A DNA stretch of 44,606 nucleotides from Corallococcus praedator (lineage in GTDB: Bacteria; Myxococcota; Myxococcia; Myxococcales; Myxococcaceae): assembly GCF_003612125.1 (NCBI RefSeq), contig NZ_RAWI01000029.1, positions 1 through 44,606 on the forward strand, read 5' to 3'. Under the pieces are notes generated by a model that made no database searches, had not been told where the DNA came from, and saw only the letters and a list, made by a program, of their open reading frames with translations. A program made the translations under genes and the position numbers. This document shows, one piece after another, positions 16,691 through 33,390 of this stretch (positions are counted from its first letter, which is position 1; the number at the start of each line of letters is the position of its first letter).

Positions 16691-17881
16691 TCAGGTCGCG
16701 TAGATGCGCTTGTGGTCGCGCGTGCCCTGGTAGCGGAAGCCGGAGCCGGCGGCGTCCGCGGCGGGCCGCTCGTCCAGGTGCTCGCGAGCGCGCATCACGT
16801 CCTCGTATTCAGGGATGGACAGCGCGCGGCGGCGCGCGAGCTTCGCCTCCAGGCCCAGCGCCTTCACGCGCGCCTGGGCGCCGTCCTGCACCACGCCGCT
16901 GAAGAACTCCGCGCAGGAACCGCTGCCGTAGGAGAACAGGCCCACGCGCTTGCCCGTCAGGTCCTCCGGGGCGGACGACAGGAGGCTCGCCAGCGCCAGG
17001 TACATGGAGCCCGTGTAGATGTTGCCCACCTGCGAGGGCATCACCAGGCTGTGGCCCACCAGCCGATCAAAGCTGGCATCCGGCGCGGCGTCCCCGTCCA
17101 GCGTGCGCAGGTGCCGGTGCGCCTTGCGGGACATCTTCCCGTAGGGCACGTGGTAGACGAGCGCGGCGAAGCGGTCGCTGTAGGCGCCCTCCCCGCCCGC
17201 GTCCCCCGCGGCCTCCTGGTAGGCGCGGTAGGCCCCCTCCAGCGCGTCCAGGTAGCACTGGACGGAGTAGTGCCCGTCCACCAGCGCGTCCTTCGAGTAC
17301 AGCGGACGCCAGAAATCCATCACGTCCTTGGAGTAGACGCCCGTCTTGCCGGCCTCCAGGACGACGAGGCTGGGGTGGTCCGACACCAGCATCGCCACCG
17401 CGCCCGCGCCCTGGGTGGGCTCGCCCGGCGTGCCCACGCCGTAGCGGGCGATGTCCGAGCACACGATGAGCGCCTTGCGGCCCTTCGCGCTGCCGGAGCG
17501 CACCCAGTCCAGCGCCATCTGCAGCGCCGCAGTGCCGCCGTAGCAGGCGTGCTTCGTCTCGAAGATGCGGCAGCGCGTGGACAGGCCCAGCAGGCCCTGG
17601 ACGTAGGAGGCCACCGGCTTCGAGTGGTCCACCGCCGTCTCCGTGCCCACCACCAGCAGGCCGATGTCGTCGGGAGAGCAGCGCGCGGACTCCAGCGCCA
17701 TCCGCGCCGCGCGGGCCGCCAGCGTCACCGTGTCCTCGTCCACCAGCGGCACGCCCATGCGCGTCACGCCCAGGCCGTCCACGTACTTGCCGGGCGCGAC
17801 CCCGCGCGCCATCGCCAGGTCCGCCAACTCCACATACGTGTCAGGAACCGCGACACCGATTGCTTCCAGGCCCACCTGCAT
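16691..17881 (-). CDS. mvaS: Hydroxymethylglutaryl-CoA synthase
   Basis: The product is 396 aa from ATG 17881 (GAGGGGGAAG upstream). It condenses acetyl-CoA with acetoacetyl-CoA to HMG-CoA. The catalytic triad is visible: E81 (VVGTETAVDHSKP), C113 (ETKHACYGGTAAL) and H244 (ALVYHVPYGKM); GSGSCAEFFSG near the end is also typical. Length is normal for bacterial MvaS. In myxobacteria HMG-CoA synthase feeds isoprenoids and also the alternative isovaleryl-CoA route (aib genes), but no aib, liu or other mevalonate genes are next to it here. The possible tandem YceI gene (isoprenoid binding) is intriguing but not proof of a link. Confidence 0.92.
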   Translation of the reverse strand: MQVGLEAIGVAVPDTYVELADLAMARGVAPGKYVDGLGVTRMGVPLVDEDTVTLAARAARMALESARCSPDDIGLLVVGTETAVDHSKPVASYVQGLLGLSTRCRIFETKHACYGGTAALQMALDWVRSGSAKGRKALIVCSDIARYGVGTPGEPTQGAGAVAMLVSDHPSLVVLEAGKTGVYSKDVMDFWRPLYSKDALVDGHYSVQCYLDALEGAYRAYQEAAGDAGGEGAYSDRFAALVYHVPYGKMSRKAHRHLRTLDGDAAPDASFDRLVGHSLVMPSQVGNIYTGSMYLALASLLSSAPEDLTGKRVGLFSYGSGSCAEFFSGVVQDGAQARVKALGLEAKLARRRALSIPEYEDVMRAREHLDERPAADAAGSGFRYQGTRDHKRIYAT

Positions 17882-18123
17882 GACTTCCCCCTCGGGTTCT
17901 TCGGTTGATTGCTTCAAGCACACGCCTCCCGTGCACCGCGGACGCGGTGGATGGGATTGCGGGTGTGTCATTGCTTCAAGGCGGGCCGGCGCTCGCGGGG
18001 GCCCCACCCCCGCCCCTGGACGCCGCCTTCACATCCGGACCGGAAGCCCTCGCTTTCCGGTGGAGGCGCTTTGCGCGCGCGTCGGTGTTGGAGGCACCGG
18101 CGCGCGAGCGAAAGCCGCCTGCT

Positions 18124-18999
18124 TCAGCGTCGCGCGTAGGAACCGGTGCGCAGCTCGTCGATGATGCCGGGGCCCTTGGGCGCCCAGCCCAGCAGCGTCT
18201 GCGCCTTCTGCGCGGAGAACTTCTGGTCCAGGGCCAGCGCGTCGGCGAAGGCGCCAAACTGCTTGCGCGCCTCCTCCAGGGGCCACGCGACCGTCTTGCC
18301 ACCCGCGCCAGCGCCCTCGCTCGCCGCGGCGGCGATCTCCTTCACCTTCAGGGGCGGGCCCTGCACGGCGACCAGCACGGTGCCAGCGGGGGCCTGCTCG
18401 ACGGCGCGCACATAGAGGTCCGCCAGGTCCTCCACGAACACCACCGGCCAGTGGTTCTCACCCGTGCCCATGAAGCGGGCGGCGCCGCCGTCCTTCACGG
18501 ACGCGCTGAGCATGGAGGGGATGCCGGCGCCGCGCCCGTAGACGATGCCCGGACGGATGACGATGCCGCGCACGCCCGCCGTGTTCAGCGTGCGCTGCTC
18601 CACGGCCGGGCGCCAGGCGACCAGCGCCGCCGCGCTCAGCGGGGTGTCCTCGTTCACGATGTCGCCGCGCGTGTCGCCGTGCACCCAGACGCCGCTGGTG
18701 TAGACGAAGGTCTTGTTCGTGCCCTTGAGCGCGTCCAGCACCGCCGCGACGGCGGGCGCGTCCACGGCCTCGCTGTTGGTCGTCGCCGTCCAGACAACCG
18801 CGTCCAGGTTCTTCACCAGGGCGGCCAGCCCCGCGGTGTCCGCGAGGTCGCCCGCCACGGCCTGGACGCCCCGGCCGGTGAGCTTGTTGCGCGCATCCTC
18901 GGAACGCGCGAGGCCCAGGACCTGGTGGCCCGCCTTCTTGAGCGCATCCACCACCGCCCCGCCGATGTAGCCCGTCGCGCCCGTGACAAGGATCTTCAT
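18124..18999 (-). CDS. NAD(P)-dependent epimerase/SDR-family protein
   Basis: The product is 291 aa from ATG 18999 (GAGG upstream). An ATG at 19032 overlaps the upstream stop (ATGA) and would add 11 residues, so coupling is possible. The N-terminus is an extended-SDR Rossmann motif (MKILVTGATGYIGGAVVDALKKAGH, GxxGxxG at 7-13), followed by VAGDLAD, VVWTATT and VYTSGVWVHGD. The Tyr/Lys catalytic pair of active epimerases is not clearly present, which suggests an atypical SDR (NmrA/YwnB-like or reductase). The reaction is unknown. It follows the DUF5519 lipoprotein gene by 29 bp. Confidence 0.78.
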   Translation of the reverse strand: MKILVTGATGYIGGAVVDALKKAGHQVLGLARSEDARNKLTGRGVQAVAGDLADTAGLAALVKNLDAVVWTATTNSEAVDAPAVAAVLDALKGTNKTFVYTSGVWVHGDTRGDIVNEDTPLSAAALVAWRPAVEQRTLNTAGVRGIVIRPGIVYGRGAGIPSMLSASVKDGGAARFMGTGENHWPVVFVEDLADLYVRAVEQAPAGTVLVAVQGPPLKVKEIAAAASEGAGAGGKTVAWPLEEARKQFGAFADALALDQKFSAQKAQTLLGWAPKGPGIIDELRTGSYARR

Positions 19000-19028
19000 G
19001 TTCCGCCTCTTCTCAAGTTCAGGTTGAG

Positions 19029-19649
19029 TCATTCGACAGTCACTCCCACCACCTGGCCGTCATGGGCCCAGGCGTAGGAGCGCAACAGCAGTTGCCACAC
19101 GACCTCAAGCTCGTCCGCGTCGCGAGGTCCGAAAAGCATCGGCGTTCCCGAGCGCGGATGCGGCATGCCCCAGCCCTGCTGGAACACCTGCCGCGCCAGC
19201 TCCGGCGGGAACTTCAGGTGCAGGCTGCCGTCCTCCGCCGGGTGGATGTGCGCGAACTCCGTCCCCACCTGGAACGCCGCCCGGGGGCCTCGCACGGACT
19301 CCGGCCGCAGCCAGAACGCACGCGCCCCCGGCACGGAGATGCCGCTGGGCGCCACCGTCACGTCCGGCAGCGCCGCCGCGCGGGTGAAGAGGCGCTCCTG
19401 GATGTCCGTGGGGGACTGCTGGCTCAACTGCCGGTGCGCCAGCGGCGTGCCCGGAGGCGCGTCGCTCGTCTCCGGACGTGGGCCCTTGCGCGCGGCCAGC
19501 CGGAAGGACGGCTCCGGCGCCGTGGACGTCAGCACCCGCGACACGCCCGCCGCCTCGGCGCGAGGCACTTCATTCGCTGGGGGGGTGCAGGCCGTCGCGG
19601 CCAGGAACAGCGCCACGTGCACCCGGAGGACCGGACCTCGGGAAACCAT
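19029..19649 (-). CDS. Lipoprotein with a DUF5519 (luciferase-like) domain
   Basis: The product is 206 aa. A hydrophobic leader (VALFLAATAC, candidate lipid-modified C21) is followed by a Pro/Ala-rich linker. Residues about 85-206 match the DUF5519 pattern: SGISVPGARAFWLRPESVRGPRAAFQVGTEFAHIHP-type text, then SLHLKFPPELARQVFQQGWGMPHP, then MLFGPRDADELEVVWQLL. The domain is related to fungal luciferase-like proteins of unknown reaction. The lipobox is weak at -3. The gene is divergent from the LysR regulator (75 bp between starts), so LysR control is plausible. Confidence 0.68.
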   Translation of the reverse strand: MVSRGPVLRVHVALFLAATACTPPANEVPRAEAAGVSRVLTSTAPEPSFRLAARKGPRPETSDAPPGTPLAHRQLSQQSPTDIQERLFTRAAALPDVTVAPSGISVPGARAFWLRPESVRGPRAAFQVGTEFAHIHPAEDGSLHLKFPPELARQVFQQGWGMPHPRSGTPMLFGPRDADELEVVWQLLLRSYAWAHDGQVVGVTVE

Positions 19650-19724
19650 GACTTCCCTATAGAGCGGGTTGACGACTGGACACTACGCGCAGGAGGGAAA
19701 AGGATTGTTTCCTGGAGGTGACCA

Positions 19725-20651
19725 ATGGAGCACGTCGCGCCCTATTTCACGTTCGCCGAGGTGGTGCGGACCGGCAGCTTCACGGTGGCGGCCAAATCGC
19801 TGGGGCTGTCGAAGGCGACCGTGAGCAAGCAGGTGATGCTGCTGGAGAGCACGCTGGGCGTCCGGCTCCTGCACCGCACCACGCGCAAGCTGTCGCCGAC
19901 GGCGGAGGGGCGGGCCCTGGCGGCGCGGTGCCAGCGGATGACGGACGAGTTGGAGGCGGCGAAGGCGGAGGTGCTGCTCTTGCGGAGCAAGCCGCGCGGA
20001 CGCCTGCGCGTGAGCCTGCCGATGACCTTCGGGCTCATGCAGGTGGTGCCCGCGATGCCGGAGTTCCTGGAGCGCTACCCGGAGATCGACCTGGACATCC
20101 AACTGGATGACCGCGTGGTGGACCTGGTGGAGCACGGCTTCGACGTCTGCATCCGCATCGCGACGCTGCCGGACTCCTCCCTCGTGGCGAGGAAGCTCGC
20201 GTCCAGCCGCCGCGTCATCTGCGCGACGCCCGCGTACCTGAACCGCCACGGTACGCCGCACCGGCCCGAGGACCTGAAGCAGCACCGGTGCGTGCAGTAC
20301 ACCTACCTGGCCTCCGGCACGGCCTGGAAGCTGCGCGGGCCCGGGGGCGAGGAGTCCCTGGTGGAGACGACCGGGCCCCTGCAGGCCAACAGCAGCCTGG
20401 CCCTCAAGATGGCCGTGCTGGGGCACACCGGCATCGGGCAGTTCCCGCTGTTCGCGGTGGCGGAGGAGCTGCGGGGCGGACAGCTGGTGGAGGTGCTGGA
20501 TGACTACGCGCTGCCCGACCTGTCCATCTGGGCCGTGCACGCGCCGGGGCGCACCATCACTCCGAAGATCCGCGCGTGGGTGGACTTCCTGGCCCGGCGC
20601 TTCGCGAGCGACACGGGCTGGAGTCACGCCGCAGGGGGGAAGCGCGGCTGA
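19725..20651 (+). CDS. LysR-family transcriptional regulator
   Basis: The product is 308 aa from ATG 19725 (CTGGAGG nine nt upstream). The N-terminal winged helix-turn-helix (about residues 8-65: FAEVVRTGSFTVAAKSLGLSKATVSKQV) and the effector-binding domain (about 92-300) follow the LysR pattern, in the subgroup with TRKLSPTAEGRAL and LVARKLASSRRVICATPAYL (CrgA/AaeR-like). It is divergent from the DUF5519-SDR genes, a common arrangement for LysR targets. It is also convergent, with 2 bp between stops, with the thioesterase of the asnB operon. The effector is unknown. Confidence 0.9.
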   Translation: MEHVAPYFTFAEVVRTGSFTVAAKSLGLSKATVSKQVMLLESTLGVRLLHRTTRKLSPTAEGRALAARCQRMTDELEAAKAEVLLLRSKPRGRLRVSLPMTFGLMQVVPAMPEFLERYPEIDLDIQLDDRVVDLVEHGFDVCIRIATLPDSSLVARKLASSRRVICATPAYLNRHGTPHRPEDLKQHRCVQYTYLASGTAWKLRGPGGEESLVETTGPLQANSSLALKMAVLGHTGIGQFPLFAVAEELRGGQLVEVLDDYALPDLSIWAVHAPGRTITPKIRAWVDFLARRFASDTGWSHAAGGKRG

Positions 20652-20653
20652 AA

Positions 20654-21115
20654 TCAGCCCGTGCGGGCCGCGCCATCCTGCCAGTCGACGCGCATGCGGA
20701 ACTTGCTCAGCTGCGCGGAGGCGATCTGCGTGCGCTGGCCGTCGTCCGCAATCTTCCAGGCCTGGCTCTGGGTGAAGATGAGGTTGCGGCCGCTGCGCAG
20801 CACGTGGGCCTCGAAGAGCACCTCCGCGCCCAGGGGGGTGGCCGACATCATCATGCTGTTGAAGCTGTTGGTGAGCGCGTACTCGTCGGGCCCCAGCATG
20901 GGCAGGGTGGCCAGCATGCTGACCACGTCCAGCATGGAGTAGATGACCCCGCCGTGCAGGGTGTGGCTCAGGTTGTCGATGGCCTCCGTCACGCGCAGGC
21001 GGCACTGGCAGAAGCCGGCGCGCTGCTCGATCAGGCGCAGGCCGCAATAGCGCTGGTACGCATGCTCCAGGAGCGCCTGCGAGTGCGCCCGGGCGTGTTC
21101 ACTCAGGTCCTTCAT
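20654..21115 (-). CDS. Hotdog-fold thioesterase (PaaI/4HBT-like)
   Basis: The product is 153 aa from ATG 21115 (GGGAG upstream); a GTG at 21130 overlaps the previous stop by 4 nt. The hotdog helix HGGVIYSMLDVVSMLATL and the following strand pattern (ALTNSFNSMMMSATPLGAEVLFEAHVLRSGRNLIF) identify a 4HBT/PaaI-like acyl-CoA thioesterase. The catalytic residue cannot be fixed from sequence alone. It is the last gene of the run asparagine synthase - monooxygenase - acyl-CoA dehydrogenase - thioesterase and could release a CoA-bound product. Confidence 0.75.
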   Translation of the reverse strand: MKDLSEHARAHSQALLEHAYQRYCGLRLIEQRAGFCQCRLRVTEAIDNLSHTLHGGVIYSMLDVVSMLATLPMLGPDEYALTNSFNSMMMSATPLGAEVLFEAHVLRSGRNLIFTQSQAWKIADDGQRTQIASAQLSKFRMRVDWQDGAARTG

Positions 21116-21126
21116 CGTGTCTCCCG

Positions 21127-22203
21127 TCACAAGGCCCGTCCGATGACTTCCAGCATGACTTCCCGCGCGCCCCCGCCAATGCCGAGCAGCCGCGCGTCGC
21201 GGTAGATGCGCTCCACCCGGGCCGGCTCGACGCAGCCGTGCGCCCCATGCAACTGGACCGCGTCGTGCGCGATGCGCTCCAGCACGTCCACCGCGGAGTT
21301 CTTGGCGATGGCGGCCTGCGCCGGGGACAGCTGTCCCTCCGCCTGCCAGCGCACCGCCTGCTCCACGTACACCCGCACCACGCTCAATTCAGAGTGCCGC
21401 TCCGCCAGGCGCTGGCGCAGGACGGACTTGTCCAGCAGCGCCTCGCCGCCCACCCGGCGCGTGCGGCAGTGCGCCACCGTGTCGCGCAGCGCCAGCTCCG
21501 CGGACGCCACCGCCATCACCGCCAGGTTCAGCCGCTCCTGCTGCAGGCACGTCTGGAGCAGGCGCCCCGCCTCGCGTCCGGCGATGAGGAGCCGCGCGGG
21601 CGCCGCCTCGAAGCGCAGCGAGGCGAGCGGCAGGCACCGCCAGCCCAGGCACGCCAGCCGCGTGCTGCTCACCCCGGGCGCCTTTGCCTCGACCAGGAAC
21701 AGCGCCAGGGCGCCCTCGTGGACCGCGCCCACCAGCAGCAGGTCCGCGCGGCCGCCGTTGCAGATGAAGCTCTTCTCCCCGGTGAGCCGGTATTCGCCCC
21801 CGCGCGACTCCGCCCGGCATTCAAAGGCGCGCAGGTCGGAGCCCGCCTGGGGTTCGGTCAGCGCCAGGACGATGCCCTGGTCGCCCTTGAGCACCGCCGG
21901 CACCACGCGGGCCGCCACCTGCGCGTCGCTGCCCTGCACCGCCTTGAGGCTGACGAAGTGCGACGCCAGCCCCATGGTGATGCCCTGGGCGCCGCCCAGG
22001 GTCAGCTCCTCCACCAGCACCGCCAGCGCCCGGGGGTCGTCGGGGAGCTGCTCCGGGGATTTCCCCAGGGCCAGCAGGCCCGCGCGGCCCGCCTGGCGGT
22101 AGAGCTCCAACGGGTACGCACCCTCGCGCTCCCAGGCGTCCACGTCGGGCCGCACATGGTCGTTGACGAAGGCGCGCACCTGCTCCCGGAAGGCTTGCGT
22201 CAT
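21127..22203 (-). CDS. Acyl-CoA dehydrogenase-family flavoprotein
   Basis: The product is 358 aa from ATG 22203; a GTG directly after the upstream stop (22218) is an alternative. The acyl-CoA dehydrogenase order is clear: helical N-terminus (FREQVRAFVNDHVRP), then the middle domain with VLALTEPQAGSDLRAFECRAE and YRLTGEKSFICNGG, then C-terminal helices with AVQLHGAHGCVEPARVERIYRDAR. The end reads LLGIGGGAREVM where many relatives have Y-x-GT. It oxidises an acyl-CoA or carrier-bound acyl group with FAD. Its place between a FAD monooxygenase and a thioesterase suggests tailoring of a specialised metabolite rather than beta-oxidation. Confidence 0.84.
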   Translation of the reverse strand: MTQAFREQVRAFVNDHVRPDVDAWEREGAYPLELYRQAGRAGLLALGKSPEQLPDDPRALAVLVEELTLGGAQGITMGLASHFVSLKAVQGSDAQVAARVVPAVLKGDQGIVLALTEPQAGSDLRAFECRAESRGGEYRLTGEKSFICNGGRADLLLVGAVHEGALALFLVEAKAPGVSSTRLACLGWRCLPLASLRFEAAPARLLIAGREAGRLLQTCLQQERLNLAVMAVASAELALRDTVAHCRTRRVGGEALLDKSVLRQRLAERHSELSVVRVYVEQAVRWQAEGQLSPAQAAIAKNSAVDVLERIAHDAVQLHGAHGCVEPARVERIYRDARLLGIGGGAREVMLEVIGRAL

Positions 22204-22218
22204 GGCGTCCGTGCCCAC

Positions 22219-23343
22219 CTAGAAGACCGTGGTCTGCGCGAGGTGCTGGAAGCGCTGGACGATGGGGGACAGCCGCGCCGGGGACACCTCGCCCTCCGGT
22301 TCGAAGTAGTAGAGCTGGGTGAAGTCGTTCATCACCTGGAGCATCTCCCGCGAGCGCCGCGCCGCGCGGATTTCATAGCGTTTGAGCGCCGTCTCCAGGT
22401 CCGCGTCGCAGTGGCCCACCAGCGCCTGGGCCAGCATGAAGCCGTTCTCCAGCCCCAGCGTCAGCCCGTAGCCCAGGGTGGGCAGCATCGCGTGGATGCT
22501 GTCGCCCAGCATCACCACGCGGCCCCGGAACCACTGGCCCTCGCCCGTCAGCGCCTTGAGCTTGTGGGTGAGGATGTCCTCCTCCGGCGTCCGCGCCATC
22601 ATCCGCAGCAGGTCCTCCGGCAGCGGCGCGAACAGCTCCAACAGGCCCTGCCTGTCCAGCAGGGGCTGGTTCTTGTGCTGGTAGGCGGCGAACCAGTAGC
22701 GCAGCGAGCTGGCCTTGCTGAGCGGATAGGTCACCACGCGCGAGTGGTGGGACGTGAAGATCTGACAGCGGTCGGAGTGCAAGAGGGGCGAGTCGAACGT
22801 CACCACGCCCCGGCTGGCCACGAGCCCCGTGTCATGCGGCTGGAGCCCCGGGTTGACGAACCCTCGCGTCGTGGAGGAGACGCCGTCCGCGCCCACGACC
22901 AGGTCGAAGTCGAAGCGGTGGCCGTTGGTGAAGGTGAGGCGCACCTGGTCGCCCAGGTTCTCCAGCTTCTCGCAACCCATGTCGTAGTGGATGTCGTCCT
23001 CCTCCAGGCTGTCCGCCAGCAGGCGGAACAGCTCCGTGCGAAGGAACATCATCGCGGGCGCGGGCAGGCCCAGCCCGTCCGGACGCACCGGCTGGCTGTG
23101 GATGAGCCGGCCGTGCTTGTCGTGCGTGTCCAGGAACTCGATGGGCTGGCCCCGGGAGAGGAACTTCCGGTCCTTGAGCACGAAGCGCAGCACCTGCATG
23201 GCCTGCGGCCACACGTAGATGCCCGTGCCCGAGTCCCGGGGTCCCTTGCCACGCTCGAAGACGACGCAGTCCACGCCCAGGCGCTTGAGCATGACGGCGC
23301 AGGCCAGGCCGTTGAGGCCCGCGCCGATGATGGCGACCCTCAT
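22219..23343 (-). CDS. FAD-dependent monooxygenase (PHBH-like)
   Basis: The product is 374 aa from ATG 23343 (GAGGAGG upstream), overlapping the asparagine synthase stop by 4 nt (ATGA). It has the dinucleotide-binding GAGLNGLACAVMLKRLG (7-12 GxGxxG), the DG motif VVGADGVSSTTR and the GD motif RGRVVMLGDSIHAMLPTLGYG. This is the class A flavin monooxygenase set that uses NAD(P)H and O2 to hydroxylate aromatic or activated substrates. Substrate is unknown. Tight coupling to the amidotransferase argues that they act on the same molecule. Confidence 0.87.
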   Translation of the reverse strand: MRVAIIGAGLNGLACAVMLKRLGVDCVVFERGKGPRDSGTGIYVWPQAMQVLRFVLKDRKFLSRGQPIEFLDTHDKHGRLIHSQPVRPDGLGLPAPAMMFLRTELFRLLADSLEEDDIHYDMGCEKLENLGDQVRLTFTNGHRFDFDLVVGADGVSSTTRGFVNPGLQPHDTGLVASRGVVTFDSPLLHSDRCQIFTSHHSRVVTYPLSKASSLRYWFAAYQHKNQPLLDRQGLLELFAPLPEDLLRMMARTPEEDILTHKLKALTGEGQWFRGRVVMLGDSIHAMLPTLGYGLTLGLENGFMLAQALVGHCDADLETALKRYEIRAARRSREMLQVMNDFTQLYYFEPEGEVSPARLSPIVQRFQHLAQTTVF

Positions 23344-25292
23344 GCCGCCTCCTCGCGGGCGCTCCACAGGGGCTGGGTGTTGGAGGAGCGCAGCGAGTAG
23401 CGGTTCTGCAACAGGCAGAGGCTGGTCAGCTCCATCAGCATCGGGTCCAACAGGCCCTGCTCATGGGCGCTCAACTGCGGCAGGCGGTTGAGCAGGTCGC
23501 GCACGCGGGCCGGGTCGAAGAAGGGCAGCGAGTCCAGCTCCGAGCCGTTCAGCACGTCGCGCACCAGCTGGTACAGCCGGCCCTTCTGCTGGAGCGTGGC
23601 CGGGGGCGCGCGGAAGTAGTGCTTCTTGCGCTTGTAGAGGGCGTCCGGCAGGTAGGACTTCATCGCCTCGCGGAACACGTACTTCTCCGTGGAGCCGCGC
23701 ACCTTCATCCAGACGGGCATCTGGCAGGCCAGCTCCACGACGTGGTGGTCCAACAGGGGGACGCGGCCCTCGATGCTGTTGGCCATCTCCATGCGGTCGC
23801 CCAGCGTGGTGAGCACGAAGTTGGGCAGGTAGGACTTGGCCCACAGGTACATGGACTTGTGGACCGGGTCGCGGCCCTCCAGGTTGCGGTGGTCCAGGCG
23901 GTCGTAGAACTGGCGGTAGGGGTCCGTGCCCTCGAAGCGGTCGCGGAAGTCCTTGCGGTACAGGGCCTCCAGGGCCTTGAACCAGCCGGCCTGGTTGTCC
24001 AGCCAGGACACGCCGTGGCTGAGCTGCTCCACCATCCAGTGGATGTCCTGGGGCATGTCCGGCCGCTGGTAGCCGTTCTCGCTCTCCTGGATGCGCTGGC
24101 GCAGCTGGGTGACCACCTTCGGGTCCTGGCGCTCCGGGTTGTACAGGAGCATGTCGCGGCGGAAGTGCGGGTAGCCGGCGAACACTTCGTCGGCGCCCTC
24201 GCCGGTGAGGACGACCTTCATCCCGGCGTCGCGCACCGTCCGGCTCAGGATGTACTTGGCAACGCCGTGCGCGTTGAAGAACGGCGTCTCGTTGTGCCAG
24301 AGCGCCTGCTCGAAGTGATCCGCCAGGTCGTCCTGGGACACGGCCACCGTGTGGAAGCGCGCCCCGTTGTGCTCCGCGGCCAGCCGGGCGAAGCGGTTCT
24401 CGTCGTAGTCATCCATGTCCGTGAAGGACAGGTTGAACGCGTCCAGCGGCTGCCCGGACAGCTGCGTCGCCACGCCCAGCATGGCGGAGGAATCAATGCC
24501 GCCGCTCAGGTAGACGCCCATGGGCACGTCGGCGCGCAGGCGCAGGCTCACGGACTTCTCCACCGCGGCGCGCACGGCTTCGATCATGCCCTGCTCGTCG
24601 GACGGATCCGGCGCGTCCTGGCGGGCGAACTCCATGTCCCAGTAGCGGCCGTGGTGCAGCCCGCCGCTGTCCGCCATCACCCAGCAGCCCGGCTGCACGC
24701 TGCGCACGCCCTTGAAGAGGGTGTGGTCGCGCAGATAGAAGGCGCGGCTCGCGTAGGCGTCCTCGTCCCACTCTGCGGGGACCCCGGCGGCCAGCAGGGC
24801 CTTGATCTCCGACGCGAAGTACCAGGCGCCCCGGTGCTGGGCGTAGAACATCGGCTTGATGCCCATGCGGTCGCGCACGGCCAGCATCAGGCGGCGCTGG
24901 CGGTCGAACAGCAGGATGGCGAACTCGCCGCGCAGCTGCTTGAGGCCCGCGAGGCCCGAGCGGCGGTACAGGTGCAGGGCGATCTCACTGTCGGAGTCCG
25001 TCTTGAACTCACACCCGAGCGCCTGGAGCTCCCGGCGGATCCGCTCGTGGTCGTAGAGCTCGCCGTTGACCACCAGGGCCAGGTCACCCTGGTCCGCGAC
25101 GATGGGCTGCTTGCCGTTGTCCAGACCGATGATGCTCAGGCGGACGTGCCCCAGCACCGCGCGGCCGGCCGGGTCATGCCACAGGCTGCGCTCGTCGGGT
25201 CCACGGTGGTGGATGGTGGTCAGCGCGGTGATGAGGGCCCGCTCGTCAAAGGACGAGGGAGTACGCTGGTAGACGCCAATGAATCCGCACAT
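23340..25292 (-). CDS. asnB: Glutamine-hydrolysing asparagine synthase-family amidotransferase
   Basis: The product is 650 aa. The N-terminal class II glutaminase domain begins MCGFIGVY with the nucleophile Cys2, R51 (RLSIIG), N76-E78 (VNGELYD) and S100-D101. The C-terminal synthetase domain has the ATP pyrophosphatase loop YLSGGIDSSA (263-269) and later TGEGADEVFAGYPHFRRD. The reaction is ATP-dependent transfer of glutamine-derived ammonia to a carboxylate. It could be the housekeeping asparagine synthase, but the co-transcribed monooxygenase, acyl-CoA dehydrogenase and thioesterase suggest an amide-forming enzyme of a small biosynthetic operon, as for AsnB-like proteins in antibiotic pathways. 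It leads the operon, with a GAAGGA site about 12 nt upstream. Confidence 0.86.
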   Translation of the reverse strand: MCGFIGVYQRTPSSFDERALITALTTIHHRGPDERSLWHDPAGRAVLGHVRLSIIGLDNGKQPIVADQGDLALVVNGELYDHERIRRELQALGCEFKTDSDSEIALHLYRRSGLAGLKQLRGEFAILLFDRQRRLMLAVRDRMGIKPMFYAQHRGAWYFASEIKALLAAGVPAEWDEDAYASRAFYLRDHTLFKGVRSVQPGCWVMADSGGLHHGRYWDMEFARQDAPDPSDEQGMIEAVRAAVEKSVSLRLRADVPMGVYLSGGIDSSAMLGVATQLSGQPLDAFNLSFTDMDDYDENRFARLAAEHNGARFHTVAVSQDDLADHFEQALWHNETPFFNAHGVAKYILSRTVRDAGMKVVLTGEGADEVFAGYPHFRRDMLLYNPERQDPKVVTQLRQRIQESENGYQRPDMPQDIHWMVEQLSHGVSWLDNQAGWFKALEALYRKDFRDRFEGTDPYRQFYDRLDHRNLEGRDPVHKSMYLWAKSYLPNFVLTTLGDRMEMANSIEGRVPLLDHHVVELACQMPVWMKVRGSTEKYVFREAMKSYLPDALYKRKKHYFRAPPATLQQKGRLYQLVRDVLNGSELDSLPFFDPARVRDLLNRLPQLSAHEQGLLDPMLMELTSLCLLQNRYSLRSSNTQPLWSAREEAA

Positions 25293-26593: not shown

Positions 26594-28714
26594 TCAGCGG
26601 TGCTGGAGGAGGAAGTGGGCCTCATCCCAGAGCAGCCCATGGCGTCGCAGGAGGTCTTCAATCCCCGTCCCCGCCGGGGGCGGATGGGCCAGGGCCTGGA
26701 ACCCGAGCAGGTGCACGGTCCGGTCGGAGGCCGCTGACGCCAGGACCGTCCCGTCGGGCGAGAAGGCCAGGGCCGACAGGAAACCCTGCTGGCCCCCAAC
26801 GCGGCCCATCAGCTCTCCGGATGGCAGGCCCCAGACCTTCACCTCCGCATCCAGGCCCCCCGAGGCCAGGAACCGCCCATCCGGTGACAGGGCCAGGGAC
26901 AGGATGCCCGCCGTGCCCTCATCCAGCGTCTGCAACAACCGGCCCTGCACCGCGTCCCAGACCCGAAGGGGCTGCCGCATGCCCGCCGTCACCAACCGGT
27001 CGCCGGACGGCGTGAACGCCACCGCCCGGACCCGCTCCCCCGCTTCGAGTCGCAGCAGCGGCTGACGCGTGGCCACATCCCAGGTGCGCACGGTCTTGTC
27101 CGCTCCGCCCGAGGCGAGCCGATGCCCGGTGGCATCGAAGACCAGGGCCCAGAGCTTCCCCGTGTGCCCCTGGAGCCGTCCCACGGGCGTGCCCTCGGGC
27201 AGGGACCAGAGGTGAATGTCCGGGTCTCCCGCCGCGGCGAGCGTCTTCCCATCCGGGCTGAACGCCACCGCGCGCACGGAGCCGTTCACACCCGACAGGT
27301 CCAGCAGGGGTCGGCCCGAGCCGGCCTCCAACACCCGCACCCGTCCCTTCAACGTGCCCGCCGCGACCAGCCTCCGGTCCGGACTCACGGCCAGGGACCC
27401 CACGGCCTCCGTCCCTTCCGCGCTCGACGCGACGCTGCTCCAGTCCGCGAGGCGCCACCGTCGCAACCCATCTTCCGCGCCGGAGAGCAGCTCCTGCTCC
27501 TGGGAGAACGCCAGCGCCTCCACCCACACCTCATGTCCGCGCAGGAGCACGTCCAGCGGAGCACGCGGTCTGGACCAGACCTTCAAGACGCCCTCCATCC
27601 CGCCGGAAGCGAAGGTGTACCCGTCGGGAGACAACGCCACGCACATCACGAACCCACGGTGCGCATCCAGCCGCTCCAACAGGGCCCCGCCGCGCGCATC
27701 GACAAGTTGGACGCGCCCATCCCATCCCGCCTGGACGACGAGCGTGAACGCGGGGTCGATGGCCGCGGCCGACACATCCCCACTGTTTCGCAGGACGTTC
27801 ACGAGCTGCCCCGACCGCGCATCCCAGAAGCGCAGGGCGTGGTCGGCCGCCGCGGTCATGATCCGCTGCCCGTCCAGGGAGAAAGCCCCCGACTCCACCT
27901 TCTCCTCGTGACCGATGAGGCGATGCGCTTCCTTGCGCGCCTCCAGGTCCCAGACCCGCGCGCTCCGGTCCATGCTCGTCGAGAGCAGCCGCTGGCCATC
28001 CGTGGAGAAGGCCACGGCAATCACATGCTCGTCATGTTCGAAGCGCAGGTGTTCGGCTCCGGTGGCCACGCTCCAGACGCGCACCGTCTTGTCCAGGCCT
28101 CCGGAGGCCAACCGCTCTCCCCCGGGTGAGAACGCCAGCCCCCGCACGACGTCCGTATGGCCTTGATACAGGGCCACCTGACGCCCCTGCCGCCAATCCC
28201 AGACGCGAATCTCCCCGGGCCTGCCGGCGGACGCCAGCCACCGGCCGTCCGGCGCGAAGGCCACGGCGTGCACCTCCGCCGTGTGGCCCTTGAGCTCCGC
28301 CAGCAATCCACCGTGCTCCACGTCCCAGAGCCGCACGACGGAGTCGTAGCCCGCGGAGGCCAGCACCCGCCCATCCGGCGAGAACGCCACGGCGAGGACG
28401 GAGCCTTCGAACGACTGCGTCCAGCGCAGCGTGGAGGCCCGGCCCGACGCCTGCCCTTGTCCCCACCGGGCCGCCAGTGAGTCCTGGGAGGCGCGGGCGA
28501 TCGCGAAGGAGGCCGCCGCCACGCCCCATTGCCGGGACTCGGCGGCCGCTTCGCCCTTCGCCAGGTAGATGCGCGCGCGCAGGTCCCGCGCCACCGCGTC
28601 GTCCCGGTCCTCCGCGCGGGTGGGTTCGTGCGCCGCGCACGAAGCGAGCAGCAACGCCAGGACGCCCCACCGCGGCTTCAGGCACTTCAAGGACTGCTCC
28701 CCTCCGGAAGACAT
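26594..28714 (-). CDS. Lipoprotein with 14 WD40 repeats
   Basis: The product is 706 aa. A signal peptide with lipobox LASC (C26) suggests a lipid-anchored periplasmic or surface protein. A short helical stretch (about 35-85: [26 protein letters not shown]) resembles a TPR-like helix pair. From about residue 100 I count 14 WD40 repeats of ~42 aa, for example [25 protein letters not shown], ending about residue 690. Fourteen repeats make two seven-bladed propellers. Repeats 6, 8 and 9 are degenerate. WD40 proteins are binding scaffolds. The frame is intact despite the repetitive sequence. Confidence 0.88.
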
Positions 28715-29559: not shown

Positions 29560-30384
29560 ATGACCAAGATCAAGTCTCCGCCGGGATTCGTTTCAACGCC
29601 CAAGACCGCGCCGAAGAGCGCCACGACCGAGGGCAAGCCCGCTGGCGCGCCCGAGCTGAAGAAGGCCCCCAAGCGCGCGGGCGACAGCTTCGAGCAGACG
29701 AAGCCTGCCCCGAAGTCCGGCAAGGAGGGCTTCAAGGTCAATGACCGCGTCATCGTGAAGGTCATCGCGGACGAGCCCACCACCCCCGTCAAGGGCGAGA
29801 ACACGGGCCTCAAGGTCAATGACCGCATCATCGTGAAGATCGTCGCGGACGAGCCCACCAACCCCGTCACGGGCGGCGGTGACATCGGCTTCAAGGGCAA
29901 CATCGGCGGCAAGGGCGACTTCAAGGACATCGGCTTCCCGCACGGGCCCATCAAGGTCATCGCGGACGAGCCCACCACCCCCGTCACGGGCGGTGGGACG
30001 CCGGGCCTCATCGACGATCACATCGTGAAGATCGTCGCGGACGAGCCCACCAACCCCGTCACGGGCGGCGGGACGTCGGGTCTCATCGATGATCACATCG
30101 TGAAGATCGTCGCGGACGAGCCCACCAACCCCATCAAGGGTGGCACGGACTCCGGCCTGAAGATCGGTGACCACATCGTCAAGGTCATCGCGGACGAGCC
30201 CACCAACCCCATCAAGGGCGGCGGTGACGGCAGCATCAAGGACATCGATGACGGCGTCATCGTGAAGATCATCTCCGACGACCCCATCCGTGGCCCGTCC
30301 GAGCCTTCGTTCAAGCCGCCGAAGCTCGACATCAAGCCGCTGGACACCCAGGTGCTGAAGGTCCGCATGGACAGCCCGGTCTGA
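29560..30384 (+). CDS. Repeat protein, candidate RiPP precursor (ADEPT[TN]P repeats)
   Basis: The product is 274 aa, no signal peptide. ATG 29560 has AAAGGA nine nt upstream. Residues 1-55 are a Lys/Pro/Thr-rich leader-like region. Residues 56-222 carry six repeats of about 25 aa with the core IVKxxADEPT[TN]P[VI], at D71, D97, D136, D161, D186 and D212 (spacing 26, 39, 25, 25, 26). The 39-residue step holds an extra Gly-rich insert (FKGNIGGKGDFKDIGF). Two degenerate copies follow (IISDDP at 238-242, VRMDSP at the end). Each core offers paired acid residues and Thr/Lys, the chemistry used by ATP-grasp ligases that make ester or amide cross-links (graspetides). It is followed directly by an ATP-grasp and a 2OG oxygenase gene. 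It could instead be a structural repeat protein. The family is not one I recognise. Confidence 0.7.
   Translation: MTKIKSPPGFVSTPKTAPKSATTEGKPAGAPELKKAPKRAGDSFEQTKPAPKSGKEGFKVNDRVIVKVIADEPTTPVKGENTGLKVNDRIIVKIVADEPTNPVTGGGDIGFKGNIGGKGDFKDIGFPHGPIKVIADEPTTPVTGGGTPGLIDDHIVKIVADEPTNPVTGGGTSGLIDDHIVKIVADEPTNPIKGGTDSGLKIGDHIVKVIADEPTNPIKGGGDGSIKDIDDGVIVKIISDDPIRGPSEPSFKPPKLDIKPLDTQVLKVRMDSPV
29752..30222 (+). repeat. Coding tandem repeats of the candidate precursor
   Basis: Near-identical DNA blocks of about 75-78 bp (one of 117 bp) encode the six ADEPT[TN]P units, with conserved GGACGAGCCCACCA-type text. Copies 4 and 5 (about 30007-30150) are almost identical, pointing to recent duplication. The downstream copies diverge. 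Confidence 0.85.
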
Positions 30385-30412
30385 GCAGCCTCCTGGCGGA
30401 GTCACGGTCCCC

Positions 30413-31351
30413 ATGGCGTCCATGAAGAAGGTCGTGATCATCGGCTCGCGGACGGATGACGCCACCCGCTTCGTCGCTGAAGCGGTGGAGCGCCGACGCG
30501 CGCGAGCCATCGTCGTGGAAACCGACAAGGTGCCCGACTCCGCCACGCTGAGCTGGGAGGACGGCGACGTGCTCTGGGACGGTGAATGTCTCAGCGACCT
30601 GCGCTCGTTCTACATCAAGGCCATCCGGCTCTCGCTCCCGGTCCCCGAGGCCGAAGCCCTGTCCGCGCGGAACTTCCCGCGCTGGCAGGAGCAGTACCTC
30701 GCGGAACGGGAGCGTCAGTCGCTGCTGCACTCCGTCCTGCGCTCGCTCAACAAGCGCGGGTGTTCCTTCATCAACCCGATGGAGGCGGTGGAGCTGCACT
30801 ACCTGAAGCTCCACCAGCTGGCCCTGCTGCGGCGGCACAAGATCCCCGTGCCCGCGAGCCTGGGCACCGCCTCCGCGGACGCGGTGCGGGAGTTCGTCGC
30901 CCGCCACAAGGCCGTCATCTACAAGCCGCTGGGCGGCGGCGCGCTCGTGCAGAAGATTGGCGAAGCGGACCTCACCGAGGAGCGGATGGCGCTGCTCGTC
31001 AACTGCCCGGTCCTCTTCCAGCAGCAGATCCAGGGCGACGAGTTCCGCGCCTACGTGCTCGACGGCGAGCCCGTGGCGGCCTTCCGCATCCCCACCGAGG
31101 GTGTGGTGGACGCGCGGCAGAACCTGGACAAGGTGAAGCCCGGCCGCCTGCCCAAGGAGGCCTGGGAGCTGTGCATCCGCGGCGCGAAGGCGCTGGGCAT
31201 GGTCTTCACGGCGGTGGACCTGCGCCGGACCCCCGAGGGCGAGTTCGTGGCCCTTGAATTCAACCCCACTCCCGCCATCTCCTTCTTCGATGATCCGCGC
31301 GACGGAAAAGTCATCACCCGACTCGCCAGCTACCTGGTCGCCAAGGCCTGA
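30413..31351 (+). CDS. RimK-like ATP-grasp ligase
   Basis: The product is 312 aa from ATG 30413 (GGAG 11 nt upstream; ATG 30422 also possible). The C-terminal half is an ATP-grasp fold: VIYKPLGGGALV (nucleotide Lys171), the hinge VLFQQQIQGDEFRAYVLDGE (E210, R212) and the metal site AVDLRRTPEGEFVALEFNPTP (D269, E282, N284). This pattern matches the RimK/MvdC-MvdD branch, which activates a carboxylate as acyl-phosphate and joins it to an amine or hydroxyl. The N-terminal ~130 aa form a pre-ATP-grasp domain without a recognised leader-binding motif. It starts 28 bp after the repeat-protein gene and overlaps the oxygenase frame, so all three are probably one transcript. The substrate is inferred. 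Confidence 0.83.
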   Translation: MASMKKVVIIGSRTDDATRFVAEAVERRRARAIVVETDKVPDSATLSWEDGDVLWDGECLSDLRSFYIKAIRLSLPVPEAEALSARNFPRWQEQYLAERERQSLLHSVLRSLNKRGCSFINPMEAVELHYLKLHQLALLRRHKIPVPASLGTASADAVREFVARHKAVIYKPLGGGALVQKIGEADLTEERMALLVNCPVLFQQQIQGDEFRAYVLDGEPVAAFRIPTEGVVDARQNLDKVKPGRLPKEAWELCIRGAKALGMVFTAVDLRRTPEGEFVALEFNPTPAISFFDDPRDGKVITRLASYLVAKA

Positions 31352-32054
31352 GCGCCCCAGCGGCTTCTTCGTCGCGCACTTCGCCGACAGCGTCTTCGGC
31401 CACGTCCGCGCGAAGCCGCCGAGCGCGTTCCCTGCGTCCGCGGCCGGGTGGTCCCCGCTCGCGGACGCATCCCCGAAGCTGCACGACGCCATCCGCCACG
31501 AGTTCATCTCCGGTGGACGGGTGCCGCACGTCTGCCTCCAGCGCATGCTCCTGCCCGAGCGCGCCGAGGCCATGCACCAGGCGCTCCGCGACGCCCGCTT
31601 CCAGCGCCACCACCACGGGCCCTATCCGCTGCACGTCGCGCCGCTGGCGCAGCAGGCGCCCGGCGTCCTGTCGGACTTCTGCGCGTGGCTCGCGAGCGAG
31701 GACGGCGCGGACTTCCACGCGGCGCTCGTGGGCTGGCCCCAGAAGCTGGAGACCCGGCAGGTCCAGGTGTCGCGCATGGACGTGGGCGAGCAGTTCCCGG
31801 AGCACCGGGACACGGACGAGGAAGGGCTCGCGGTCGTCTACAACTTCACCCGCCCCTGGGAACAGGGCTTCGGCGGGGTCCTCGCCTTCCCGCACCCGGA
31901 CGGCGACCGGGACCTGATGCGCGTCCCGCCCATCTTCAACTCGGTGTTCATCTTCCGCGCCGTGAACGCCCCGCACCGCGTGACGGAGTGGATGCCCGCG
32001 GCGCAGGGCCATCAGCGCTACTCCATCACCGCCTTCATGCTCGCGAAGCGGTGA
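31290..32054 (+). CDS. 2-oxoglutarate/Fe(II)-dependent oxygenase (prolyl-hydroxylase-like)
   Basis: The product is 254 aa if it starts at ATG 31290, which overlaps the ATP-grasp gene by 62 nt; there is no good start codon between the ATP-grasp stop and 31518, yet third-position GC stays high from about 31353. The double-stranded beta-helix core is clear: QVSRMDVGEQFPEHRDTDEEGLAVVYNFTR with the HxD metal motif (H172, D174), then IFNSVFIFRAVNAPHRVTEW with distal H229, then QRYSITAFML with R243 for 2-oxoglutarate. This is the P4Hc/Tpa1-like pattern that hydroxylates Pro, Asp/Asn or similar residues in proteins. Prolines and acidic residues in the neighbouring repeat protein are natural candidate targets. 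Confidence 0.78.
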   Translation: MIRATEKSSPDSPATWSPRPERPSGFFVAHFADSVFGHVRAKPPSAFPASAAGWSPLADASPKLHDAIRHEFISGGRVPHVCLQRMLLPERAEAMHQALRDARFQRHHHGPYPLHVAPLAQQAPGVLSDFCAWLASEDGADFHAALVGWPQKLETRQVQVSRMDVGEQFPEHRDTDEEGLAVVYNFTRPWEQGFGGVLAFPHPDGDRDLMRVPPIFNSVFIFRAVNAPHRVTEWMPAAQGHQRYSITAFMLAKR

Positions 32055-32136: not shown

Positions 32137-33390
32137 ATGGCACCGACAGGCCGGACGGAATCGCCCCCCTCGCCCAGACGGGCTTCAGGAGGACTGACCC
32201 GCGAAGGGCTCGCCGCGGTGTCCTCCGTGCTGCGCGGCCCTGTCGAACAGGGCGGGCTGCCCGGCCTCGTCTCGCTGGTGGCGCGAGGGGCTCAGGTCCA
32301 CGTGGATGCGCTGGGCGTGCAGGACCTCCAGTCCGGCGTGCCCATGCGGCGCGACACCCTCTTCCGCATCGCGTCCATGGGCAAGCCCGTCACGGCCGTG
32401 GCCACGCTGATGCTCGTGGAGGACGGAAGGCTCCAGCTCGATGGCCCCGTCGACCGGTGGCTGCCGGAGCTGGCGAACCGCCGCGTCCTGCGCGCGCTCG
32501 ACAGCCCGCTGGAGGACACCGTTCCGGCGCGCCGCCCCATCACGGTGCGGGACTTGCTCACGCTGCGGCTGGGAACGGGCGCGGTGATGGCGCCTCCGAA
32601 CACCTACCCCATCCAGAAGGCGATGCAGGCGGAGCGGGTGGCTCCCGGCTTCGAGCCCATCCCCCACACGCCCGACGAATTCATGCGGCGTCTGGGCGCG
32701 CTGCCGCTCATCCATCACCCGGGAGAACGGTGGATGTATCACACCGGGTTCGAGGTCCTGGGCGTGCTGGTCGCACGCGCCTCCGGGATGGGCCTTGATG
32801 ACTTCCTCTCCGAGCGCCTCTTCAAGCCCCTGGGCATGAACGACACCGCGTTCAGCGTGCCGCAGGAGAAGCTGGACCGGGTGTCGACCGCCTACCAGCG
32901 AGCCCCCGGCACCGGAGCGCTCACGGCCTGGGACAGCCCCCTGTCGGGCCTGTTGTCACATCCTCCCGCCTTCCTCGCGGGCGGCGGGCAGGGCGGCGGG
33001 CTGGTGTCGACCGCCGACGACTTCCTCACCTTCTGCCGGATGCTGCTGAACCAGGGCCGCCACGGTGCGACGCGCCTGCTGTCCCCCGAGAGCCTCCAGC
33101 AGATGCTGACGGATCAGATCCCCCCCGAGCAGAAGGCCGCCTCGCCCTTCTTCCCGGGCTTCTGGGACACCTCCGGCTGGGGCTTCGGCGGAAGCGTCAC
33201 GACGCGGCCGGATGGCATCTCCCCCACGGCCGGTCGCTATGGCTGGGCCGGCGGCTTCGGCACCACGTTCTTCATCGACCCCGACCAGGACCTGGTCGCG
33301 CTGCTGCTCACCCAGCGGATCATGTCGGGCCCCGACGATGAGGCCTTCGCCGTGGCGTTCTCGAAGGCGGCGTACGCGGCGCTCGGTTAG
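32137..33390 (+). CDS. Serine hydrolase, class C beta-lactamase/DD-peptidase-like
   Basis: The product is 417 aa from ATG 32137 (GGAGGAG upstream). It has the S12-type motifs: SMGK (S80-K83, nucleophile and base), YHT (Y201, the Y-x-N/T motif in ERWMYHTGFEVLG) and a WAGGFGTTF segment near the C-terminus that takes the place of the KTG/HxG box. There is no signal peptide, so it is likely cytosolic, unlike a beta-lactamase for drug resistance; esterase or peptidase activity fits better. It is 83 bp downstream of the oxygenase on the same strand and might trim or hydrolyse the cluster's product, but could equally be independent. Confidence 0.82.
   Translation: MAPTGRTESPPSPRRASGGLTREGLAAVSSVLRGPVEQGGLPGLVSLVARGAQVHVDALGVQDLQSGVPMRRDTLFRIASMGKPVTAVATLMLVEDGRLQLDGPVDRWLPELANRRVLRALDSPLEDTVPARRPITVRDLLTLRLGTGAVMAPPNTYPIQKAMQAERVAPGFEPIPHTPDEFMRRLGALPLIHHPGERWMYHTGFEVLGVLVARASGMGLDDFLSERLFKPLGMNDTAFSVPQEKLDRVSTAYQRAPGTGALTAWDSPLSGLLSHPPAFLAGGGQGGGLVSTADDFLTFCRMLLNQGRHGATRLLSPESLQQMLTDQIPPEQKAASPFFPGFWDTSGWGFGGSVTTRPDGISPTAGRYGWAGGFGTTFFIDPDQDLVALLLTQRIMSGPDDEAFAVAFSKAAYAALG

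Follow-up and report, generated by a model that had tools for sequence, protein, structure and literature searches.

A cor operon for a predicted corallotide-type graspetide in Corallococcus praedator and related loci among Myxococcota

Does a group of genes for a repeat protein, an ATP-grasp ligase and an oxygenase in Corallococcus praedator specify a new kind of graspetide, and which residues of the repeat would be linked and hydroxylated? The genes lie in a stretch of 44,606 nucleotides (assembly GCF_003612125.1, contig NZ_RAWI01000029.1, positions 1 to 44,606), henceforth referred to as the window. A first-pass annotation had described these three genes as lying on the same strand in close succession and had proposed a new class of graspetide-type RiPP cluster. 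Open reading frames and Pfam matches confirm the three genes; a fourth, encoding a PF00144 protein (32137-33390), had been overlooked. The genes are named here after those of the cor cluster of Corallococcus exercitus.

Operon layout and encoded proteins

The operon in the window consists of four genes on the plus strand, the first three arranged head to tail and the PF00144 gene next. The corA-like gene (29560..30384) encodes a precursor of 274 amino acids, recognized from its open reading frame and repeat units. The corB-like gene (30413..31351) encodes an ATP-grasp graspetide synthetase of 312 amino acids (Pfam, NCBIfam and alignments), the corC-like gene (31290..32054) a 2OG-Fe(II) oxygenase of 254 amino acids (Pfam, alignments and model fold), and the corD-like gene (32137..33390) a PF00144 protein of 417 amino acids (Pfam, PF00144 at 2.7e-69). 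The start of corC most likely is the ATG at 31290, because this codon is found in all 14 loci of the window's genus (g1, taken here to be Corallococcus), including the window. The TTG at 31254 was dropped as a start, being absent from one genus locus (L036). With the ATG start, corC overlaps corB by 62 nt (31290..31351), in the same phase in 14/14 genus loci. Outside the genus, the overlap is again 62 nt in four of eight loci. Of the other four, two have shorter overlaps (8 nt and 4 nt), one has a gap of 79 nt, and in one the genes are fused.

Two features of the surrounding sequence are recorded here. A WD40-repeat protein is encoded upstream of corA (26594-28714, minus strand), and homologues lie near several other cor loci at varying positions. 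Further away (16694-25292, minus strand except for one gene), a run of genes encodes HMG-CoA-synthase-like, epimerase, acyl-CoA dehydrogenase, FAD-binding and asparagine-synthase proteins together with a LysR regulator, perhaps a separate biosynthetic cluster.

CorB matches PF02955 and PF08443, both above their cut-offs, while its best NCBIfam match, TIGR04187 (2e-24), stays below the cut-off of that model. The best solved relative is PDB 7drm (1e-43), which we take to be PsnB, the plesiocin synthetase, and E210 and R212 of the DEFR stretch are invariant in all 13 aligned rows. Taken together, these matches and residues place CorB among the ATP-grasps of the graspetide-synthetase branch. CorC, whose frame ends at 32054, matches PF13640 above cut-off (6.5e-9), and its iron-ligand motif HxD...H as well as Arg243 are likewise invariant (13/13 aligned rows). 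A sequence search of solved structures returned a single match for CorC, at E 0.9. The nearest solved fold to the CorC model (mean pLDDT 79.3; residues 1-44 below 50), among the matches listed, is OGFOD1 (4nhx; Z 20.4, rmsd 2.2, 196 residues aligned), and the same matches include Tpa1 (Z about 19.8) and PHD2 (Z about 16). In CorD, SxxK, the catalytic motif of the PF00144 family, and YHTG are invariant in 14 rows, comprising the window, 12 loci and the copy of genome G010; locus L033 was excluded, as only part of its CorD lies within its stretch. No CorD match at E 0.01 or better was found in the fetched stretches of the eight loci outside the genus, which suggests that CorD was added at the level of the genus.

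The cor cluster of C. exercitus was published in March 2026 in ACS Chem Biol as graspetide group 15, with corallotide as its product, and was characterized by MS, NMR and reconstitution (PMC13097080). As described there, C. exercitus CorB forms a Lys-Asp isopeptide within KxxxD motifs of a long repeat protein, and CorC places a hydroxyl onto the delta-carbon of the bridged Lys (5-hydroxylation) after the link has formed; CorC also binds CorB and activates it, and CorD is described there as not essential (PMC13097080). The published CorA has five modified motifs, a mass of about 22 kDa as tagged protein and a helical leader (PMC13097080).

In the window, too, a large KxxxD-repeat precursor adjoins a synthetase, a 2OG oxygenase and a PF00144 gene. 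Orthology was measured by identity to C. exercitus AB043A (locus L031): CorB is 85% and CorC 78% identical. The NMR-solved trypsin fragment of the paper (PMC13097080) occurs letter for letter in the AB043A precursor, alone among the 22 precursors compared. The AB043A precursor carries seven KxxxDxP words and has a mass of 26.1 kDa, as against the five modified motifs and about 22 kDa reported (PMC13097080), and therefore is not the exact protein studied; KxxxDxP words may not all be used. Judged from gene content and sequence identity, the window operon is an orthologue of the C. exercitus cor cluster and not a new kind. The earlier assignment to a graspetide-type cluster, in which an ATP-grasp cross-links a precursor of several units and a 2OG oxygenase hydroxylates it, thus agrees with a characterized orthologue, and for that same reason the claim of a new class falls (PMC13097080). 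Literature searches for corallotide, or for graspetide combined with Corallococcus, returned nothing beyond this paper.

Precursor units and predicted modifications

The window precursor begins with a Pro-rich leader (aa 1-66; 29560..29757, plus strand), shorter than in other genus precursors, followed by six ADEPT[TN]P units: KVIADEP at K67-P73 (29758..29778), KIVADEP at K93 (29836..29856), KVIADEP at K132 (29953..29973), KIVADEP at K157 (30028..30048) and K182 (30103..30123), and KVIADEP at K208 (30181..30201). Two further units are without ADEPT, KIISDDP at K236 (30265..30285) and KVRMDSP at K267 (30358..30378), the latter at the extreme C-terminus. The six repeats of IVKxxADEPT[TN]P described earlier were thus correctly counted as ADEPT[TN]P units; one of them is preceded by PIK instead of IVK, and units 7 and 8 come in addition. 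The DNA repeat array scores 256 to 378 for its main rows in Tandem Repeats Finder, far beyond chance. A structure model of the precursor has a mean pLDDT of 40.8, and there is no leader helix in this low-confidence model. The plesiocin motif TTxxxxEE was not found in the window precursor sequence.

To delimit the unit, 22 precursors (14 from the genus and 8 from outside) with 138 KxxxDxP words (102 + 36) were compared in a leave-one-position-out test, in which words were recovered by V/I/F at +1, M/A/S at +3 and the remaining positions; 134 or 135 of the 138 words are recovered in this way. With the tested position left out, K is found in 134/134, D in 134/134 and P in 134/135 cases, counts that come from related precursors and from units that are copies within one precursor, and hence are not independent events. 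By contrast, position +5 takes six residues (Asp in 81/136, Glu in 36/136) and position +7 ten (Thr in 64/136). ADEPT[TN]P is present in 4 of the 22 precursors, all from a single clade. On this comparison, ADEPT is one clade's version of the KxxxDxP unit, and the expectation that only ADEPT[TN]P would be conserved gives way to a recognition word defined as KxxxDxP from 138 natural words. As KxxxDxP alone is conserved, Thr is an unlikely donor and Glu would not be needed; both were set aside as linking residues because +7 and +5 vary.

We consider it highly probable (about 0.88), by analogy with the characterized system, that the four genes constitute a cor operon for a corallotide-type graspetide in which CorB would form a Lys-Asp link and CorC would subsequently hydroxylate the Lys. 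This reading is supported by the published set of four genes and their order, by the identity of CorB and CorC, by the fixed K, D and P, by the invariant residues of CorC, and by the finding that CorC adjoins CorB in every one of the 22 genomes whose match is intact. CorB would activate the Asp of KxxxDxP and join it to the Lys four residues before, giving an i,i+4 isopeptide (-18 Da). CorC would bind and activate CorB and then add a hydroxyl to the bridged Lys at its delta-carbon (+16 Da), leaving a net change of -2 Da per unit, with CorD as a presumed accessory protein. We infer that the reactions of C. exercitus would also take place on the units of the window, of which there are eight, the C-terminal one being the least certain. 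The computed shift is -2.016 Da per fully modified unit and -18.011 for the link only (no corC). For the predicted tryptic peptides IGDHIVKVIADEPTNPIK, DIDDGVIVKIISDDPIR and IIVKIVADEPTNPVTGGGDIGFK, the computed monoisotopic neutral masses are 1958.084, 1882.005 and 2339.274 unmodified and 1956.068, 1879.989 and 2337.258 if stapled and hydroxylated, respectively. Published CorA truncation data suggest that CorC requires sequence beyond the unit (PMC13097080), so that hydroxylation may fail at the last unit of the window, whose Pro is followed by a single residue. As to the product, the corallotide paper reports no growth inhibition and notes collagen-like properties (PMC13097080); our guess is that the window product serves as a structural protein, stapled and prone to aggregate, and not as an antibiotic.

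The first-pass annotation had instead regarded the Thr of ADEPT[TN]P as the donor, esterified to Asp or Glu, with hydroxylation of Pro or Asp. In favor of such chemistry, Thr directly follows Pro in every ADEPT unit of the four ADEPT precursors, the fold of the CorC model is of the prolyl-hydroxylase type and Thr donors are common among other graspetides (PMC13097080). Yet the variation at +7 and +5 given above, the lack of ADEPT in units 7 and 8 and the use of Lys and Asp by the characterized orthologue, with the hydroxyl on the Lys delta-carbon (PMC13097080), leave this alternative very improbable. The description of the oxygenase as prolyl-hydroxylase-like accordingly holds for the fold (OGFOD1/Tpa1/PHD2) but not for the residue it implied, since the published CorC targets Lys (PMC13097080).

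Lys-Asp staples might also be complemented by extra links specific to the ADEPT clade, made through the Thr or Glu of the unit or through KxxxD words in the linkers (KGGGD, KDIDD). Such words do occur in the ADEPT precursors, at K193, K219 and K227 of the window and similarly in L035, L039 and L040. However, these words have neither an xP behind them nor a hydrophobic flank, and not every precursor retains them. Moreover, the published NMR fragment starts directly after the Lys of a linker-type word (K-NPDD; PMC13097080); cleavage by trypsin at this point means that the Lys carried no link. We regard additional links as having little chance of being real.

The clade that carries ADEPT units (the window, L035, L039 and L040) groups together in the CorC tree (100/100); the CorB tree recovers it at 98/98 with L035 not included. 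Its four leaders place 63-66 residues ahead of the first unit and contain 6-10 Pro; the remaining ten precursors of the genus have 88-101 residues there, with 5-6 Pro. Since the leader is thus rewritten with respect to the published one, docking to the enzymes is not assured, and the clade could be decaying, its leader having lost helix-forming Leu so that the enzymes cease to dock. Leu14 is replaced by Pro in 4/4 of the leaders and Leu18 and Leu37 in 3/4, 13 alignment columns are lost, CorB of one clade genome (a MAG) has an internal gap of 45 aa, and another genus genome, G010, holds a cor relic. Against decay, the CorB and CorC frames of the window are whole with their invariant residues kept, no unit has lost its K or its D, and the new leader persists in four genomes with a pooled pN/pS of 0.30 over 40 codons (0.14 and 0.58 in the other two groups; crude counts from pairs that are not independent). 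Decay therefore seems a poor explanation, no likelier than the two foregoing ones, and we retain the cor operon with Lys-Asp staples as the preferred reading.

Distribution and variants

When genome contigs were queried with the CorB of the window, eight loci were obtained. Seven belong to named strains of Corallococcus (identity 85-98%) and the eighth to a Myxococcaceae MAG (83%, best segment). Of the 16 genus genomes, 14 encode the repeat protein, and an ATP-grasp gene adjoins it in all 14. This bears out the earlier expectation that the two always co-occur, with one MAG copy carrying the 45-aa gap. A CorC profile built from the 14 genus sequences only was searched in 195 Myxococcota genomes at a cut-off of E 0.001 and matched 23, namely the 14 genus genomes in full, G010 in fragments, and eight genomes outside the genus (3e-149 to 2e-36). 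A wider profile including these eight added four weak matches, G138, G034, G114 and G117 (9e-9 to 1.5e-4). With a genus-only CorB profile, searched in 96 family genomes, the 14 genomes of the genus and six others matched at 4.7e-66 or better, followed by a gap to 3.6e-42; these six are the same six family genomes that carry CorC. In the two remaining genomes, G182 and G185, CorB-like frames adjoin CorC. CorB, CorC and a unit precursor with at least two units occur together in 22 of 22 loci among the 195 genomes. This agrees with the published remark that the oxygenase accompanies the synthetase (PMC13097080). At E 0.001 the CorB profile matches 64/96 family genomes and, judged from these matches, most graspetide-type ATP-grasps of the family are without a CorC partner.

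The eight loci outside the genus belong to genus g41 (three), genus g8 (one), genus g17 (two) and families f24 and f25 (one each). They question the published confinement to Corallococcus of group 15, a group defined in that paper by a similarity network (PMC13097080). Two of the g41 loci (L082 and L083) have a CorB 90-92% identical to that of C. exercitus that nests among the genus sequences in the CorB tree, and may have acquired it by horizontal transfer. In G138 (C14:101572-103961, minus strand) the weak CorC match (9e-9) and a weak match to the CorB profile are about 1.6 kb apart and may mark another graspetide cluster with an oxygenase.

Two of the 16 genus genomes are without an intact cluster. 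G010 retains a relic (L090:6420-8266) with a leader piece, a frame-broken CorC, no CorB and a whole CorD frame; in G013 no match to CorA, CorB or CorC was found. In C. sicarius (L033:376-5634), a HlyD/ABC/TolC set (Pfam) and a LysR-like gene lie between corC and corD. We take this candidate cor exporter to be an unrelated insertion. ABC homologues (E < 1e-60) are present in 4/16 genus genomes including C. sicarius, and in the other three they lie on a contig other than that of cor or its relic. No exporter consistently accompanying the cor cluster was found, the L033 set being the one candidate followed.

Three loci outside the genus depart from the common layout. In G185 (L088:2850-6169, minus strand), CorB and CorC are fused in a single 587-aa frame, and the precursor, 470 aa from the chosen start, has two units and matches no Pfam domain above its cut-off. 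Such a natural fusion hints, independently of the paper, at the CorB-CorC complex described there, and might serve as a construct for studying it. The G109 precursor (L086) is about 98 aa long and has almost no leader, with Gly-Lys-Pro triplets between its units. In G182 (L089:6545-9648, minus strand), a precursor interrupted by the contig end carries, within 128 aa, eight TTxxxxEE words in alternation with two KVRADDP units and is followed by two ATP-grasps and then CorC. The best solved relative of the first ATP-grasp is 7drm (1.3e-30); the second is CorB-like and 37% identical to that of the window. G182 is a possible two-chemistry graspetide and, if its precursor does bear both linkage types, the graspetide would be built by two different synthetases. 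Among the literature titles listed for graspetide with Myxococcus, or for hybrid or fused graspetides, none was on such variants.

These loci suggest that the corallotide kind extends further, and is more modular, than the published account has it. A bolder proposal, that KxxxDxP with CorB and CorC forms a portable stapling module of Myxococcota rather than a Corallococcus peculiarity, placed on carriers as varied as those of the window, G109, G185 and G182 and including ester rings and hydroxy-isopeptide staples in one G182 chain, is tentative, and we rate its chances slightly below even.

Relation to known systems

The closest solved relative of CorB is a synthetase of the plesiocin type (7drm), and both systems have precursors built of repeat units. 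Whereas plesiocin has two ester links per repeat unit (PMC12291112), one Lys-Asp amide is expected per window unit. The window precursor also differs from plesiocin and microviridin proper, with their Thr-donor cores, in that TTxxxxEE is missing and Thr is not conserved in the units. The CorC model shares its fold with the prolyl hydroxylases OGFOD1, Tpa1 and PHD2 at only about 14-16% identity, and the published CorC acts on the bridged Lys, not on Pro (PMC13097080).

The corallotide cluster of C. exercitus itself is alike in its four gene families, their order, the orthologous CorB and CorC, the KxxxDxP units and, to judge by the loci, the genus. The window differs from it in units that are mostly ADEPT[TN]P rather than of the published DDP type, in having eight words compared with five modified motifs (PMC13097080), and in its shorter, Pro-rich leader. 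If our reading is correct, the window operon would extend a very recently described 5-hydroxylated isopeptide chemistry to a clade in which both the repeat and the leader are different.
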